Positions 1,063 through 6,768 of a stretch of 8,501 nt of DNA are shown in pieces (the first letter of the stretch is position 1; every line of letters begins with the position of its first letter). Under the pieces are notes generated by a model, which saw only the letters and a program-made list of their open reading frames with translations, was not told the DNA's origin and did no database searches. The stretch covers positions 1 through 8,501 of the forward strand of contig CAJWZG010000119.1 in the NCBI GenBank assembly GCA_913049565.1, given 5' to 3'. Both the position numbers and the translations under genes were made by a program. The stretch comes from an uncultured Gammaproteobacteria bacterium (lineage in GTDB: Bacteria > Pseudomonadota > Gammaproteobacteria > Pseudomonadales > Azotimanducaceae_A).

Positions 1063-1614
1063 TTACCTTCGAGACGGATGAATGATGTTGCTGGAATCCC
1101 TGTTGTTCTTTGGCTGGGCAGGCTGCGGCGCACGCGGCCACCGATCAAGATGAACCTGTAGCAACTCGATCAATGTGCCATCCGGGTCTTTACAGATCGC
1201 AACCTCAGCCATCCGGTCAGTACACACGGAGGGTGGTGCAAGGAATTCGACACCTCGCCGCACTAATTGTTGGTAATCTGCCTGTAAATCCTCAGATACT
1301 AAGCATAGCCGCACCAGCCCAAGGTCTTGATTTTGCAAGGGAAGGTGCGGGTCTTGTGAGGCAAACTCTGTTAGATCTAACTTTGGCAAGCCTTTACCGA
1401 GTTGCATGATGCAAGCTCGACCTTGAACATTCTGCGGCACTGCCAACGCTTGTGCGACGCCTTGAGATACCGTACTTGACTGGGCAGCTTCTAGGCCTAG
1501 GTAAGGAATGTCAGGACGGAACATTTCAAAACCCAATTCCCTATAAAAGACAATTGAGCGATCAAGGTCAGTGACATTGACGTTGATATGGCCCCACCGG
1601 AAACGTTGGCCCAT
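1063..1614 (-). CDS. VOC-superfamily (glyoxalase/bleomycin-resistance fold) protein with an altered metal site
   Basis: The 183-residue product has two VOC half-modules. The N-terminal one opens with WGHINVNVTDLDRSIVFYRE, in which His9 is the first expected metal ligand. LDLTEF (Glu83) supplies the second. The C-terminal module has GLVRLCLVSEDLQADYQQLV followed by KDPDGTLIELLQ, with Glu150 the last ligand. At the position where the family usually has His (G-x-x-H-I-A-F) this protein has Arg102, so the canonical His-Glu-His-Glu set is incomplete. Members of the superfamily include glyoxalase I, methylmalonyl-CoA epimerase, extradiol dioxygenases and metal-free resistance proteins, and the reaction here cannot be assigned. 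A 30-residue Pro/Arg-rich tail follows the domain. The start is an ATG with only a weak purine-rich site upstream. The 232-bp leader contains a perfect inverted repeat. Confidence 0.88.
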   Translation of the reverse strand: MGQRFRWGHINVNVTDLDRSIVFYRELGFEMFRPDIPYLGLEAAQSSTVSQGVAQALAVPQNVQGRACIMQLGKGLPKLDLTEFASQDPHLPLQNQDLGLVRLCLVSEDLQADYQQLVRRGVEFLAPPSVCTDRMAEVAICKDPDGTLIELLQVHLDRWPRAPQPAQPKNNRDSSNIIHPSRR

Positions 1615-1846: not shown

Positions 1847-2566
1847 CTATTCTTCAAGGTCACCGACAATTAACTCAGCATACGACACTTTTTTACCAAC
1901 TGCTTGGCGCATCTCGGCAATGTCATCGCGATTGTCATACAGCTGTTGTTTTCGTTCAGCAATTTGACTGGAATTGTTCAACGCGGTCGCTCTGTTTTCT
2001 TTCGATTTTTTCAACAGATCGACCACAGTTTGCCGATTTTCATCAGCTAAAGTTTCTAATTCGGTAACTGACTTTTCATTTTCAGCAATCAAGTCTGTCA
2101 CTGTCTCTGCGTCTACGATCTGTGGATTCAGCGCTCCGGATATGAGCTCTGAATTTGAGCTCAAATTCTCCTCATTAAACTCCAGCATATCTTGGTTGAG
2201 CTGCATGACTTCTTGGTTGATCGCGATGAGTTGTTGATTCAGATCGATCATTTTTTCATTCAACGCCAGATTCTGCCTGTTCAAATTTGCGGTATGACCA
2301 AGCAGATCCAATTCCGACCGAGCTTTGGCAGCCTCAACGTAACGGGCCTGTTCGTCACCCTCGAAATCGAACACCTCTAATATCGTCGCACGGCTGGCAA
2401 AAATATCGTCCATGTTATGCAAAGCGAGCTGCTGATTCCCCGACATGGCGGCAACATAATTACTGAGCACTAACAATCGGTTCTGCTCTATGTTCGCCCT
2501 TGACTGGGCCAAGAGCGCCTTGTTATCCATGATTTTGGCACCTAGGGCTTCTATTTTTAGCTTCAT
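1847..2566 (-). CDS. asparagine-ladder coiled-coil protein, function unknown
   Basis: The 239-residue product has no signal peptide or membrane segment, so it is probably cytosolic. Almost all of it is heptad-repeat helix. Residues 96-138 carry Asn at exactly seven-residue intervals (96, 103, 110, 117, 124, 131, 138), each usually preceded by Leu/Ile/Phe and followed four residues later by a second hydrophobic residue, as in ALNEKMI-DLNQQLI. A second Asn register occurs at residues 163, 177, 191, 198 and 212 (motif ENRxT or DNRD), and a third near the N-terminus at 15, 29 and 36. A less regular stretch (residues about 40-90) separates the N-terminal part from the ladder. A break at GALNP separates ladder from tail. 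Buried Asn in coiled coils fixes register and partner choice and occurs in trimeric adhesin stalks, but here there is no export signal. I do not recognise the family. The start is set by the ribosome site at 2576-2580. The gene sits between two VOC genes on the same strand. Confidence 0.82.
   Translation of the reverse strand: MKLKIEALGAKIMDNKALLAQSRANIEQNRLLVLSNYVAAMSGNQQLALHNMDDIFASRATILEVFDFEGDEQARYVEAAKARSELDLLGHTANLNRQNLALNEKMIDLNQQLIAINQEVMQLNQDMLEFNEENLSSNSELISGALNPQIVDAETVTDLIAENEKSVTELETLADENRQTVVDLLKKSKENRATALNNSSQIAERKQQLYDNRDDIAEMRQAVGKKVSYAELIVGDLEE
2141..2284 (-). repeat. degenerate 21-bp tandem repeats encoding the Asn heptads
   Basis: The coding DNA for the seven-Asn ladder shows a 21-bp period. 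The clearest pair on the plus strand is CTTGGTTGA at 2191-2199 and again at 2212-2220. Further degenerate copies lie on both sides (GTTGATTCAG from 2233, and TTCATTCAA before 2263). Each unit encodes one heptad with one Asn. The pattern suggests growth by internal tandem duplication followed by divergence. Confidence 0.65.
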
Positions 2567-2575
2567 GAATCGCAA

Positions 2576-2580
2576 CTCCT
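2576..2580 (-). promoter_or_regulatory. ribosome binding site that decides the coiled-coil gene start
   Basis: AGGAG on the minus strand lies nine bases before the ATG at 2564-2566. An in-frame TTG (2573-2575) directly abuts the AGGAG, leaving no spacer, so the longer TTG-initiated form is unlikely and the ATG is chosen. Confidence 0.75.
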
Positions 2581-2727: not shown

Positions 2728-3147
2728 TCATTGGGCCGCGAACAAGACCTCGGGGTTCACCATGGTTTTCATCTCCAAGATATTGCCATTGGGGTCTTGG
2801 ACGAAGAACGTTTCCTGCTCGAACTGCGTTCCAACGAAACGGCGATATGGCTCGTCAAGATAGTCGAGACTCGACGCCTCGATCCGTTGCTTTAACTGCT
2901 GGAAGTCCTCTTCACTTAGGTGGGCACCAAAGTGAGGCACTGCGACATTACCCATATCCACATCGTGCCGCACTGAAGGCAGTGCTTCAGTGCTTTGGTG
3001 AAGCGTTAACTCGTTACCCCAGAAATCTATGTCGACCCAGCGCCCCTGTTCACGGTTGCCTGATTTACATCCAAGGATATCTACATAAAATTGTTCTGTT
3101 ACAGCCAAATCACCGGCGGGAACAGCGAAGTGAAAGGTCGCACTCAT
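2728..3147 (-). CDS. VOC-family protein, COG3565 type (predicted extradiol-dioxygenase-like)
   Basis: The 139-residue product is a complete two-module VOC protein. It opens with FHFAVPAGDL (His6) and continues through VTEQFYVDILGCKSG, RWVDIDFWGNELTLHQ (His50), VPHFGAHLSEEDF (His72) and FVQDPNGNILEMKTM (Glu125). This order, especially RW-DIDF-G-, VPHFG and DP-GN-LE-K, is what I know from the COG3565 group, annotated as predicted dioxygenases of the extradiol family; His6, His72 and Glu125 are the likely metal ligands. No substrate is established for that group. Unlike the VOC protein at 1063-1614, its metal ligands look intact, and the two proteins are not close relatives. The ATG at 3147 has only a weak site (AAGTGAG) upstream. 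A short inverted repeat, GCGTT/AACGC (3183-3197), sits 36-50 bp before the start. Confidence 0.92.
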   Translation of the reverse strand: MSATFHFAVPAGDLAVTEQFYVDILGCKSGNREQGRWVDIDFWGNELTLHQSTEALPSVRHDVDMGNVAVPHFGAHLSEEDFQQLKQRIEASSLDYLDEPYRRFVGTQFEQETFFVQDPNGNILEMKTMVNPEVLFAAQ

Positions 3148-3873: not shown

Positions 3874-5751
3874 CTAAGTATGGCAACTCGACGGCAGATC
3901 CAGCGTTGGGTTGCGATCGAAAAAGCCAACCGGGATGAGATGAAACCCCGTGTACTCAACCGGCATAACCGGCCAATCCTCAGGTCTGGGCACATGGGTT
4001 AACGCCACGGTATGCCACATCACCAGATCGCCTTTCGAAATGTCTCGATTGTGCTGCGTATAGTGCGGTAAACCGCCGCCGCGATGCATCACTGTGTGGG
4101 CACCAGCGGCACTGAATTCTCCCTCAGCGTAAGGGGTTGCCCATAAGTGATGTTTACCAAAGGCGCCGCGCTTGCCCACCACTGAATTTTCTCCCGCTAG
4201 CAAAGACGGCGAAGCCGCAGGCAGCAGCTTGTAGGACACCGGCTTGCCGAGGCCGTTCAATGACTCCGGGTTAACCACCTTCCAATGACGGCTTTGTTCT
4301 GGTGCTATGTTACGCTTCGCAGAAGACTCGTCGGTTAAATGTCTCGACACCGCCTGAAACTGAGTGCCCTCTGGATTCGTCTCGCTCAACGGCAATACTT
4401 CAATCTGATTTTCAAAGAGCGAATTCGGGCCCCCATCCAGATCCCAGTCGAGCCGGAAACAAAATACATGTTGATGGACTGGTGACGCCAGACCTTGCGC
4501 AATCAGCGGCGACTGAGCAGGGTTATGTGTCGCTTCGATGACTGCGCTAACGCCCACGATGCCCGTTAGTTTGATCTCCATTTGCACAGTGCCATCAAGA
4601 TACAGGTACCAGTAGAAGCCGTAGTCGTAGTTGCCAATAGTAAAGATCGAGCTAATGACCAGTCGCCGAGAGCGTCTGACTTCGCTGGTTTGTGTCTCAC
4701 TGTCATAATGTTTCCACTGGATGCCGTAGTCCTCTTCGTGCATGCAGATCGCATTTTCAACCGACTTAACCTTGCCCTCCCAAGTAACTTGGTGAATGTC
4801 AAAGTAGAAAATTTCACCCAAACAATCACAGCCGAGCTTCAGTGAATTGACGAGCATGCCCATGTTGTATTCCGACGCATCGAGCACATGTTTCCAAGAA
4901 TGCATGCTGTCGTTGTCGCCGTAGGGCACGATCATTTCTGACAGCGCTGCTCGGTAGAGCAATGCCCTCCCTTGCAGAGACAACTGATGCAGCACCAAGC
5001 CATGCACTGGATGCATCGATACAGAAAACTCATAACCCTGCCATTTCACCTGATAACCCTCGACTTCAAAGCTGGGGCCCTCTGGCTGAACAATATCTAG
5101 CGGCTTGAGGCCGGATCGGGTGGTCTCTTGATGAGCCGCATCGAAACGCCCGGGATTGGGCGGCATCGGGATTACTCCAGAGTCTTCGACGCAGACAACT
5201 TTTTGGTCGGTGACGTCGACATGGGCAATCAGACCATGAATCGGTCTGGCGTAGCCGTTATCGGTTGCGTCGTCACGCACAAAAGCAATACAGCGCACAG
5301 CGCGGTGGCCCTCAGGAATTTCTGCCACCGGGTATCCACCGGCCGGCCACGGGTCGATCTGAATTCGCTTGAGATCTTCTTCGGTTTTGCAGGCAACCCC
5401 GCGCGCGGCCACGGCCGCCAGCCACTCTTCACTTGACTTGGTGAGCTGCACGGCCATTCCCAGATCCAAATAACCATAGGGCGCTTGCGCATCGGTGGGC
5501 AGCCTCAGCATTTGAGTCACTTTCTTTTCATTCAGATTAACCAGAGCTTCAAATCCGCCGTCTGACGCGCTGTCGGTGCCGAGAAATTTCACTATCCGGT
5601 CAACAGGAAGCCCAGATCGAACATCGGTCTTGGCAGGCTCGCTCAAACCCGATGAGCAAAACACCGCACGCTCATCTGAGTTCTCGCCGCGAAAAATAGA
5701 CACGGCTTCCGCGATTTCAGCTGCGGTCAAAGGCGCAAATGGATTGGTCAT
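3874..5751 (-). CDS. copper-containing primary-amine oxidase (TPQ quinoprotein)
   Basis: This 625-residue enzyme oxidatively deaminates primary amines to aldehydes, releasing ammonia and H2O2. The cofactor motif TIGNYDY (371-377) contains Tyr375, the residue self-processed to topaquinone. Asp291 in LDASEYNMG is the catalytic base, 84 residues before Tyr375, the same spacing as in Arthrobacter globiformis oxidase. Tyr277 in VPYGD matches the conserved Tyr that contacts the quinone. His426 and His428 (HQH) and His586 (ALTHVPRPEDWPVMP) are the copper ligands. Cys310 and Cys336 match the conserved disulfide pair. The C-terminal VGFFDRNPTLDLP is typical of the family. Length fits bacterial enzymes without the extra N-terminal D1 domain. 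There is no signal peptide, so it should be cytosolic, unlike periplasmic E. coli TynA. AGGAA lies seven bases before the ATG. The gene diverges from the PhyH/P450 pair. The preferred amine (aliphatic, tyramine-like or other) cannot be read from sequence. Confidence 0.97.
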   Translation of the reverse strand: MTNPFAPLTAAEIAEAVSIFRGENSDERAVFCSSGLSEPAKTDVRSGLPVDRIVKFLGTDSASDGGFEALVNLNEKKVTQMLRLPTDAQAPYGYLDLGMAVQLTKSSEEWLAAVAARGVACKTEEDLKRIQIDPWPAGGYPVAEIPEGHRAVRCIAFVRDDATDNGYARPIHGLIAHVDVTDQKVVCVEDSGVIPMPPNPGRFDAAHQETTRSGLKPLDIVQPEGPSFEVEGYQVKWQGYEFSVSMHPVHGLVLHQLSLQGRALLYRAALSEMIVPYGDNDSMHSWKHVLDASEYNMGMLVNSLKLGCDCLGEIFYFDIHQVTWEGKVKSVENAICMHEEDYGIQWKHYDSETQTSEVRRSRRLVISSIFTIGNYDYGFYWYLYLDGTVQMEIKLTGIVGVSAVIEATHNPAQSPLIAQGLASPVHQHVFCFRLDWDLDGGPNSLFENQIEVLPLSETNPEGTQFQAVSRHLTDESSAKRNIAPEQSRHWKVVNPESLNGLGKPVSYKLLPAASPSLLAGENSVVGKRGAFGKHHLWATPYAEGEFSAAGAHTVMHRGGGLPHYTQHNRDISKGDLVMWHTVALTHVPRPEDWPVMPVEYTGFHLIPVGFFDRNPTLDLPSSCHT

Positions 5752-5970: not shown

Positions 5971-6768
5971 ATGCCCTCGACCATTCCTACCTTTGAATCT
6001 AACGCGCCAGCGAGCAGCATTGCATCGGCCTTAGGAGAGGCTGGCTGTGCTGTCGTTAGTGGAGTTAACGATGCGGACCAACGACAAACCATTGTCAGCG
6101 AGTTAGATCCGTTTATGGCACATGCTGACTACAGTGACGAAGACGACCCAGAGGAATTCTATCCAGCGAACACGCGGCGAGTTTCGGCCTTAATCGCACG
6201 TTCGCCATCGGTGACCGATGGTCTGCTGATGCACCCGATCAGCACAGCAATTTGCGATACCCACTTAACGCCCAACGCAAAATTCGGTTATCAGGTACAT
6301 GTCACTGCCGGGTTGGAAGTGGGCCCCGGAGCACGGGCCCAGGTACTGCATCGCGAAGAAGACTCTTTTACCTTCTTCCAGCTGCCTAGGCCCAACATCA
6401 TCGTCGCAAGCATGTGGGCAATGTCAGAGTTTCGCACGGACAACGGCGCCACTTTGATCGTACCCGGTAGCCACTTGTGGCCTGCAGACCGAGTCCCTCA
6501 GCGCCATGAAATCCTCAGTGTAGAAATGCCGGCTGGCTCGGTGCTGTACTGGATGGGAGGTTTACTGCATGGCGCGGGGGCCAACACTTCTCGAGATTGG
6601 CGATACGGTATTATCTTGACTTACTCGCTAGGTTGGGTGCGCCAAGAGGAAAATCAGTATTTAGATATACCTCCTCGGCGACTGACCGAGCTATCCCCTG
6701 AAGCCAAGCGCATTGCCGGAATTGAAATGTACGATGCGCTGGGTTTCTATGACCCGACTGTCAGTTAA
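5971..6768 (+). CDS. phytanoyl-CoA dioxygenase (PhyH) family Fe(II)/2-oxoglutarate oxygenase
   Basis: The 265-residue product has the PhyH double-stranded beta-helix layout. An N-terminal helical part (LGEAGCAVVSGV) comes before the iron site, which is made by His127 and Glu129 (HRE in QVLHREED) and the distal His200 (LLHGAG). Arg211, eleven residues after His200 (DWRYG), is the likely 2-oxoglutarate carboxylate ligand. The core signature DNGATLIVPGSHLWP (157-171) is typical. Most family members have HxD, so HxE is a variant, though still a competent facial triad. PhyH-family enzymes hydroxylate lipid, terpenoid and secondary-metabolite substrates, and the real substrate here is unknown. There is no signal peptide. 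GGAGAAG lies a few bases before the ATG. The P450 gene follows after 144 bp on the same strand and may be cotranscribed, suggesting successive oxidation of one substrate. Confidence 0.93.
   Translation: MPSTIPTFESNAPASSIASALGEAGCAVVSGVNDADQRQTIVSELDPFMAHADYSDEDDPEEFYPANTRRVSALIARSPSVTDGLLMHPISTAICDTHLTPNAKFGYQVHVTAGLEVGPGARAQVLHREEDSFTFFQLPRPNIIVASMWAMSEFRTDNGATLIVPGSHLWPADRVPQRHEILSVEMPAGSVLYWMGGLLHGAGANTSRDWRYGIILTYSLGWVRQEENQYLDIPPRRLTELSPEAKRIAGIEMYDALGFYDPTVS

Follow-up and report, generated by a model that had tools for sequence, protein, structure and literature searches.

The gene analyzed here lies on the minus strand (1847..2566) of an 8,501-nucleotide stretch of DNA from an uncultured Gammaproteobacteria bacterium (contig CAJWZG010000119.1, referred to in full as the window), and encodes a protein of 239 amino acids in which Asn occurs at every seventh position seven times in succession. 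This Asn ladder was confirmed, is conserved, and extends further than was noted in a first-pass annotation made on the basis of the letters alone: it is the densest stretch of an Asn pattern spanning all three of the helices predicted in the protein. Our interpretation, which we hold with moderate confidence, is that the Asn-ladder protein is a member of a so far undescribed family of three-helix rods layered with Asn, which may serve as soft scaffolds or adaptors, the various subfamilies being connected with different machines.

The Asn Ladder

The open reading frame runs from an ATG at 2566-2564 to a stop codon ending at 1847 (included in the coordinates given above), and the same Met start was found in close homologs. 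An AGGAG sequence resembling a Shine-Dalgarno site (CTCCT on the plus strand; 2576..2580) is located 9 nt 5' of the ATG on the minus strand. A promoter scan yielded 4 hits vs. the 2.9 expected, and a terminator scan yielded none. The protein has a pI of 4.57 and contains neither Cys nor Trp. No export signal or membrane segment was seen in it, the highest 19-residue Kyte-Doolittle mean being 0.92, which agrees with what the first-pass annotation had stated; a signal-bearing or membrane protein was rejected in view of this lack of any hydrophobic segment, and the protein is probably cytosolic.

The Asn residues occur at positions 15, 25, 29, 36, 44, 51, 94, 96, 99, 103, 110, 117, 124, 131, 134, 138, 147, 163, 177, 191, 197, 198, and 212. 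Seven of them (N96, N103, N110, N117, N124, N131, and N138), spaced by exactly seven residues, form the rungs of the ladder (residues 96-138; 2153..2281, minus strand), the codons of which run from 2281 down to 2153, within the interval 2141-2284. Runs of at least seven rungs arose by chance in 1 of 200,000 shuffles when all the residues were permuted, and in 3 of 200,000 when the non-hydrophobic residues alone were permuted. The autocorrelation of the Asn residues shows maxima at lags of 7, 14, and 21 (9, 9, and 7 pairs, respectively), and at most 4 pairs at all the other lags up to 29. The two further Asn registers said to flank the ladder were also found: N15/29/36 and N44/51 in helix 1, and N163/177/191/198/212 in helix 3. 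A tandem repeat in the DNA was rejected as the origin of the ladder, since Tandem Repeats Finder was silent and the seven 21-nt units all differ from one another.

Family Membership and Conservation of the Asn Residues

No Pfam or NCBIfam model matched the Asn-ladder protein at its cut-off, no convincing match was obtained in a search of the PDB sequences, and none of the titles listed in keyword searches of open-licence papers names the family. The weak library matches, of which CesT_Tir_1 was the best (16.4 bits vs. a cut-off of 27), were all far below their cut-offs and were discarded, and a PDB match with ribosomal S8 (E 0.83) was taken to be coiled-coil noise. The suggestion that the protein could represent a new family is upheld by these searches: it is probably a member of an undescribed family having no model in the libraries searched. 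Searches of the protein database gave 27 relatives initially, 52 with a first alignment, and 382 matches with a wider alignment (120 of these listed). Among the 156 relatives listed, 147 are 222-255 residues long, 8 are 135-177, and one is 315, the search admitting solely lengths of 0.55 to 1.75 times that of the query.

Conservation was assessed on 183 aligned rows, which were reduced to 43 representatives at 80% identity, proteins of less than 210 amino acids being excluded; the counts were obtained from MAFFT alignments, in which the distant subfamilies might be off by a heptad. The seven-residue spacing was found to be conserved in the homologs. In helix 2, strong and weak rungs alternate: Asn is almost fixed at 96 and 110 (43/43 in both cases), 124 (41/43), and 138 (42/43), and variable at 103 (26/43), 117 (36/43), and 131 (32/43), where it is replaced chiefly by Ser, Ala, Leu, Gly, or Thr. 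The conserved Asn residues of helix 1 (2414..2524, minus strand) are N15 (35/43), N29 (42/43), N36 (38/43), N44 (40/43), and N51 (36/43); their register slips by one beside Gly43, which is invariant across 27 aligned rows. Those of helix 3 (1931..2080, minus strand) are N163 (34/43), N177 (35/43), N191 (35/43), N198 (23/43), and N212 (26/43).

The ladder might also belong to an ordinary coiled coil which merely tolerates Asn and has no special property. The variability of some rungs, particularly 103 and 131, is consistent with this explanation, as is the fact that among 34 family members, each taken from its own locus (32 genome stretches, one plasmid stretch, and the window), the 7-rung run is present in 12 and the longest run amounts to just 3 to 5 rungs in the other 22. 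The invariance of N96 and N110, along with the fact that the Asn columns hold their heptad phase in the five groups tabulated despite an identity of just 18% between the window protein and the most distant group, makes this explanation very unlikely. The longest Asn run in 453 non-family open reading frames from the fetched neighborhoods consists of 3 rungs.

Predicted Fold and Register of the Helices

Two proteins, the window protein and the relative 18% identical to it, were modeled as single chains with AlphaFold2. Three long helices were predicted in both cases, with pLDDT values of 90.9 and 91.1, respectively, and turns at similar places. In the window protein, helix 1 comprises residues 2-65 (2372..2563), helix 2 residues 71-143 (2138..2356), and helix 3 residues 153-222 (1901..2110), all on the minus strand. 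Consecutive long helices connected by short turns, which are typical of the antiparallel three-helix class, are therefore present in both predicted models.

The orientation of the Asn residues was studied by performing a helical-wheel test with 3.5 residues per turn, in which the ladder residues were omitted and three sequence sets were subjected to 2000 permutations each. In helix 2, an angle of 25 to 33 degrees separates the hydrophobic center from the Asn, and the moment was reached in 0 of 2000 permutations with each set. In helix 3, the center is 22 to 40 degrees off, on the opposite side from helix 2, and the moment was reached in 3, 5, and 0 of 2000. In helix 1, the angles are 27 to 41 degrees in the first half, on the same side as in helix 3, and 62 to 81 degrees in the second half, the moment being non-significant in both halves. 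The claim that the Asn residues are buried is therefore probably right: judging from the wheel, those of helices 2 and 3 are likely to point toward the core, and the result for helix 1 is not significant. Since the angles drift along the helices when 3.6 residues per turn are used, this reading presupposes a left-handed coiled coil.

The Asn residues might instead line a groove at the surface, on a wide g-a-d-e face binding a helix or peptide of a partner, in which case a four-helix or larger complex would be formed and the ladder would be a recognition strip. The face of helix 2 is indeed broad, the g, d, and e positions around the Asn all being hydrophobic; N44 and N51 lie toward the edge of the hydrophobic face; the Asn residues rank among the most conserved positions; and possible partners exist in the form of the same-strand neighbors conserved in three subfamilies (see below). 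The Asn series present on all three helices fit a shared interior better than a single strip, however, and we regard this explanation as doubtful.

With a computed geometry of approximately +26 degrees for a and -26 degrees for d, the phase of helix 2, the sequence of which matches [L/I/M]xxNxxx, agrees better with a than with d, and the phase of helix 3 agrees with d. The Asn residues are therefore best read as a residues in helix 2 and d residues in helices 1 and 3, if the wheel analysis is correct, a combination which would share layers in an up-down-up bundle. The register can be tentatively described by the sums 139 (helix 1 + helix 2) and 301 (helix 2 + helix 3), under which the window protein would have all-Asn layers at 15/124/177, 29/110/191, and 36/103/198, with mixed layers between them. 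As regards the second sum, 294 is closer to the helix ends in the first model and 301 to those in the second one, and covariation gave no decision about the register.

A homotrimer resembling an adhesin stalk had originally been envisaged. In the AlphaFold2 models, the three helices belong to one chain, which makes an intramolecular arrangement more likely, and the replacement of the trimer by a single-chain three-helix rod is moderately supported by these predictions. The helices might nevertheless come apart or exchange between chains to form a longer homo-oligomer, such as a parallel trimer with Asn layers at d (N@d), or a filament. The helix 2 pattern is close to [I/V]xxNxxx, the motif of the chloride sites in parallel trimers (excerpts of PMC12933892), the heptad Asn repeats observed in viral contigs perhaps form trimeric fibers, and the models are of one chain only. 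This possibility seems unlikely, however, in view of the three confident helices and similarly placed turns in both models, the phase of helix 2, and the lack of any repeat extension in the lengths of the relatives listed, within the bounds of the search.

In the single-chain rod that we favor, one chain would form an antiparallel coiled coil of three helices with up-down-up topology, each helix consisting of 64 to 73 residues, which at 1.5 A per residue gives a length of approximately 100 A. One core position would be taken by Asn in almost all the heptads of helix 2 (position a) and in many of those of helices 1 and 3 (position d), and polar Asn layers would thus alternate with hydrophobic ones. 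The Asn core may be partly hydrated, with side-chain hydrogen bonds fixing the register of the helices, and the rod may be only marginally stable and hence able to bend, open, or re-register upon binding. In the putative role of scaffold or adaptor, a conserved patch on helix 1 (approximately residues 15-55) would contact the partner, and the subfamilies would serve different machines, involving either DUF1538 antiporter-type and PII-like proteins or the flagellar fliO-fliP region. Coiled coils usually contain few buried Asn residues, since polar layers make them less stable. If our interpretation is correct, a natural single-chain bundle with Asn at most of the core layers would make it possible to examine how a hydrated core is kept in balance during evolution, and would offer designers a template.

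Comparison with Known Systems

The stalks of trimeric autotransporter adhesins and engineered GCN4 trimers resemble the present protein in that several successive core heptads carry Asn beside aliphatic layers (excerpts of PMC4786415 and PMC12933892). These N@d systems are parallel homotrimers, however, which are secreted in the case of the adhesins, whereas here a single chain is predicted to form three antiparallel helices and no export signal is present. According to excerpts of the same two papers, parallel trimers can hold chloride at triads of Asn; since in simulations the binding of chloride was unfavorable in two of three cases (excerpts of PMC12933892), ion binding by the Asn layers, suggested by analogy, is only a possibility here. 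No adhesin-type export signal or outer-membrane anchor was found: there is no hydrophobic segment, the predicted helix starts at residue 2, and no Pfam anchor model is matched.

The designed sc-apCC3 proteins are likewise single up-down-up chains, with polar layers that combine a with d positions across antiparallel helices, but they have eight core layers, at most 4 of which are polar (excerpts of PMC12441935), whereas the family is natural and longer and would have Asn in most of its layers. In excerpts of the same paper, designed three-helix bundles with three and four polar layers have Tm values of 86.5 and 25.3 C, respectively, and those with zero to two remain unmelted. AlphaFold2 was blind to this loss of stability (excerpts of PMC12441935), and its confidence in the present case is therefore no proof of a stable fold. 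Another designed three-helix bundle, 4tql, which consists of one chain with three long helices and is similar in length, ranked 1 and 2 in the Foldseek searches with both models, but with E values of 0.03 to 0.19, a TM of approximately 0.4, and no sequence match.

The first-pass annotation had taken continuous ladders to be known mainly from adhesins. This is too narrow: Asn repeats with heptad spacing were also seen in viral contigs, in frame and within open frames of 100 codons or more, and 77 of the 394 overlapping matches listed, in 22 of 80 loci, look helix-like. These repeats share with the ladder a continuous series of Asn at heptad spacing, but they are often accompanied by Ala, Ser, or aromatic residues, and none of 44 pattern-matching stretches from viral contigs encodes a relative of the family, within the sensitivity of the search. 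They may belong to putative fiber-type proteins; examples are present at loci L092, L100, and L115. The viral or phage fiber class was rejected for the Asn-ladder protein, no relatives having been found in viral contigs or in 50,697 phage records, within the sensitivity of the searches. The spectrin repeat, which has approximately 106 residues, helices of about 30, and a conserved core Trp, was rejected in view of the length of the protein, the size of its helices, and the absence of Trp. BAR and I-BAR domains are characterized by their sequence profile and a cationic membrane face.

Distribution of the Family

The distribution of the family is patchy, and it is not a core family. Matches were found in 6 of the 293 genomes in one order, 15 of the 97 relatives of one carrier, and 11 of the 76 relatives of another; these genome sets overlap and contain already known carriers. 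Renewed searches of the 97-genome set yielded no further carrier. In this set, two or three matches each were found in G002, G184, G666, G677, G692, and G694, one of the two in G677 being located at a contig end. A phylum-wide search matched 4 of 398 genomes, consisting of the known carrier G004 and three matches with E values of 1e-4 to 9e-4, which were taken to be coiled-coil noise. The carriers are largely uncultured bacteria: the six named ones are metagenome-assembled or single-cell records classified as Gammaproteobacteria, Proteobacteria, or the K189A clade (K189A in 2/6). The offshore host of a plasmid and the Tara-derived relative P0067 suggest that the habitat is marine.

Among 72,556 plasmid records, only one carries a relative (38% identical), which belongs to Octadecabacter arcticus. 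On this plasmid, pOA238_160 (L007:6612-9973), transposases of the IS6 family are located on either side of the family gene, which suggests that this copy may be mobile.

Genomic Neighborhoods of the Family

The genes adjoining the family members at the 34 loci were clustered by BLAST (1e-8), and their functions were assigned by searching Pfam or NCBIfam with one or two loci from each group, the result being extended to the others on the basis of the clustering. Four groups were distinguished by their neighborhoods, each of which forms one side of a branch in a tree of 89 rows (support 99-100%) among the labelled rows.

In the first subfamily (L076, L077, and L078; 3/3 loci), a DUF1538 protein (c40) and two c39 proteins encoded on the same strand adjoin the family gene. 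In L077, where the family gene is located at 8365-9114, the DUF1538 protein is above the Pfam cut-off and matches the UmpA and UmpB models below theirs; one c39 protein is above the P-II cut-off, and the other matches no model and is PII-like by clustering alone. The family gene, the DUF1538 (UmpAB-type) gene, and the PII-like genes thus form an apparent operon. UmpAB (DUF1538), a Na+(Li+,K+)/H+ antiporter (excerpts of PMC5484666), is related to the operon neighbor of this one subfamily, which has two PII-like genes there; however, a word search of the main text of PMC5484666 finds no PII, P-II, or GlnB, and nothing links the subfamily of the window to UmpAB.

In the second subfamily (6/6 loci), the family gene is located downstream of c3, and c2 is divergent. 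Based on Pfam, c3 and c2 are FliO and a lytic transglycosylase, respectively, at L072 (family gene 8431-9153), with FliP beyond; the other five loci (L065, L067, L070, L073, and L074) were assigned by clustering. The FliP cluster is present in 5/6 loci, and the sixth contig ends there. According to these assignments, fliO and fliP are separated, within a flagellar operon, by the family gene and the divergent lytic transglycosylase gene. In the third subfamily, proteins of 271 and 171 amino acids encoded on the same strand precede the family gene at 4/5 loci (L081, L082, L083, and L084), the fifth being cut by its contig end, and in L081 (8127-10188) the three genes follow one another at distances of 13 and 39 nt. 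No convincing Pfam, NCBIfam, or PDB match was found for these two neighbors (L083). The fourth group consists of two loci with a common syntenic block.

The genomic links with an antiporter-PII gene set and the flagellar export region suggest testable partners for this unannotated family. It might even be imagined that the protein is a natural cytosolic single-chain analog of the N@d coiled coils, a rod the stacked Asn layers of which would bind halide or water, so that intracellular salt would be reported by how long or how open it is, and the subfamilies of which would be wired to a Na+/H+ antiporter-PII operon and to flagellar assembly, but we attach only a slight chance to this.

In the subfamily to which the window belongs, no partner was found to be conserved across the loci: an SDR-like protein and a 178-aa protein are common to three loci, an epimerase-family protein to three, and a VOC gene to two.

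Other Features of the Window

The ladder gene is flanked by two VOC/glyoxalase-fold genes on the minus strand, one downstream (1063..1614; PF00903, E 3e-13) and the other upstream (2728..3147; PF00903, E 7.5e-6). The company of VOC genes, which had been proposed as a point to check in homologs, turned out not to be general and was rejected as a trait of the family: a homolog of the larger VOC gene is present near just one other locus, where it likewise matches PF00903, i.e., in 2/34 loci with the window included, although a diverged VOC gene might escape clustering at 1e-8. By eye, positions 1-82, at the edge of the window, resemble a tRNA-Leu(CAA) gene, which was not called by ARAGORN. Other genes encode a copper amine oxidase (3874-5751; NCBIfam PRK11504, above the cut-off), a PhyH dioxygenase (5971-6768; library search), and a P450 (6913-8166), the nearest model to which is SolI, far below the cut-off of that model.
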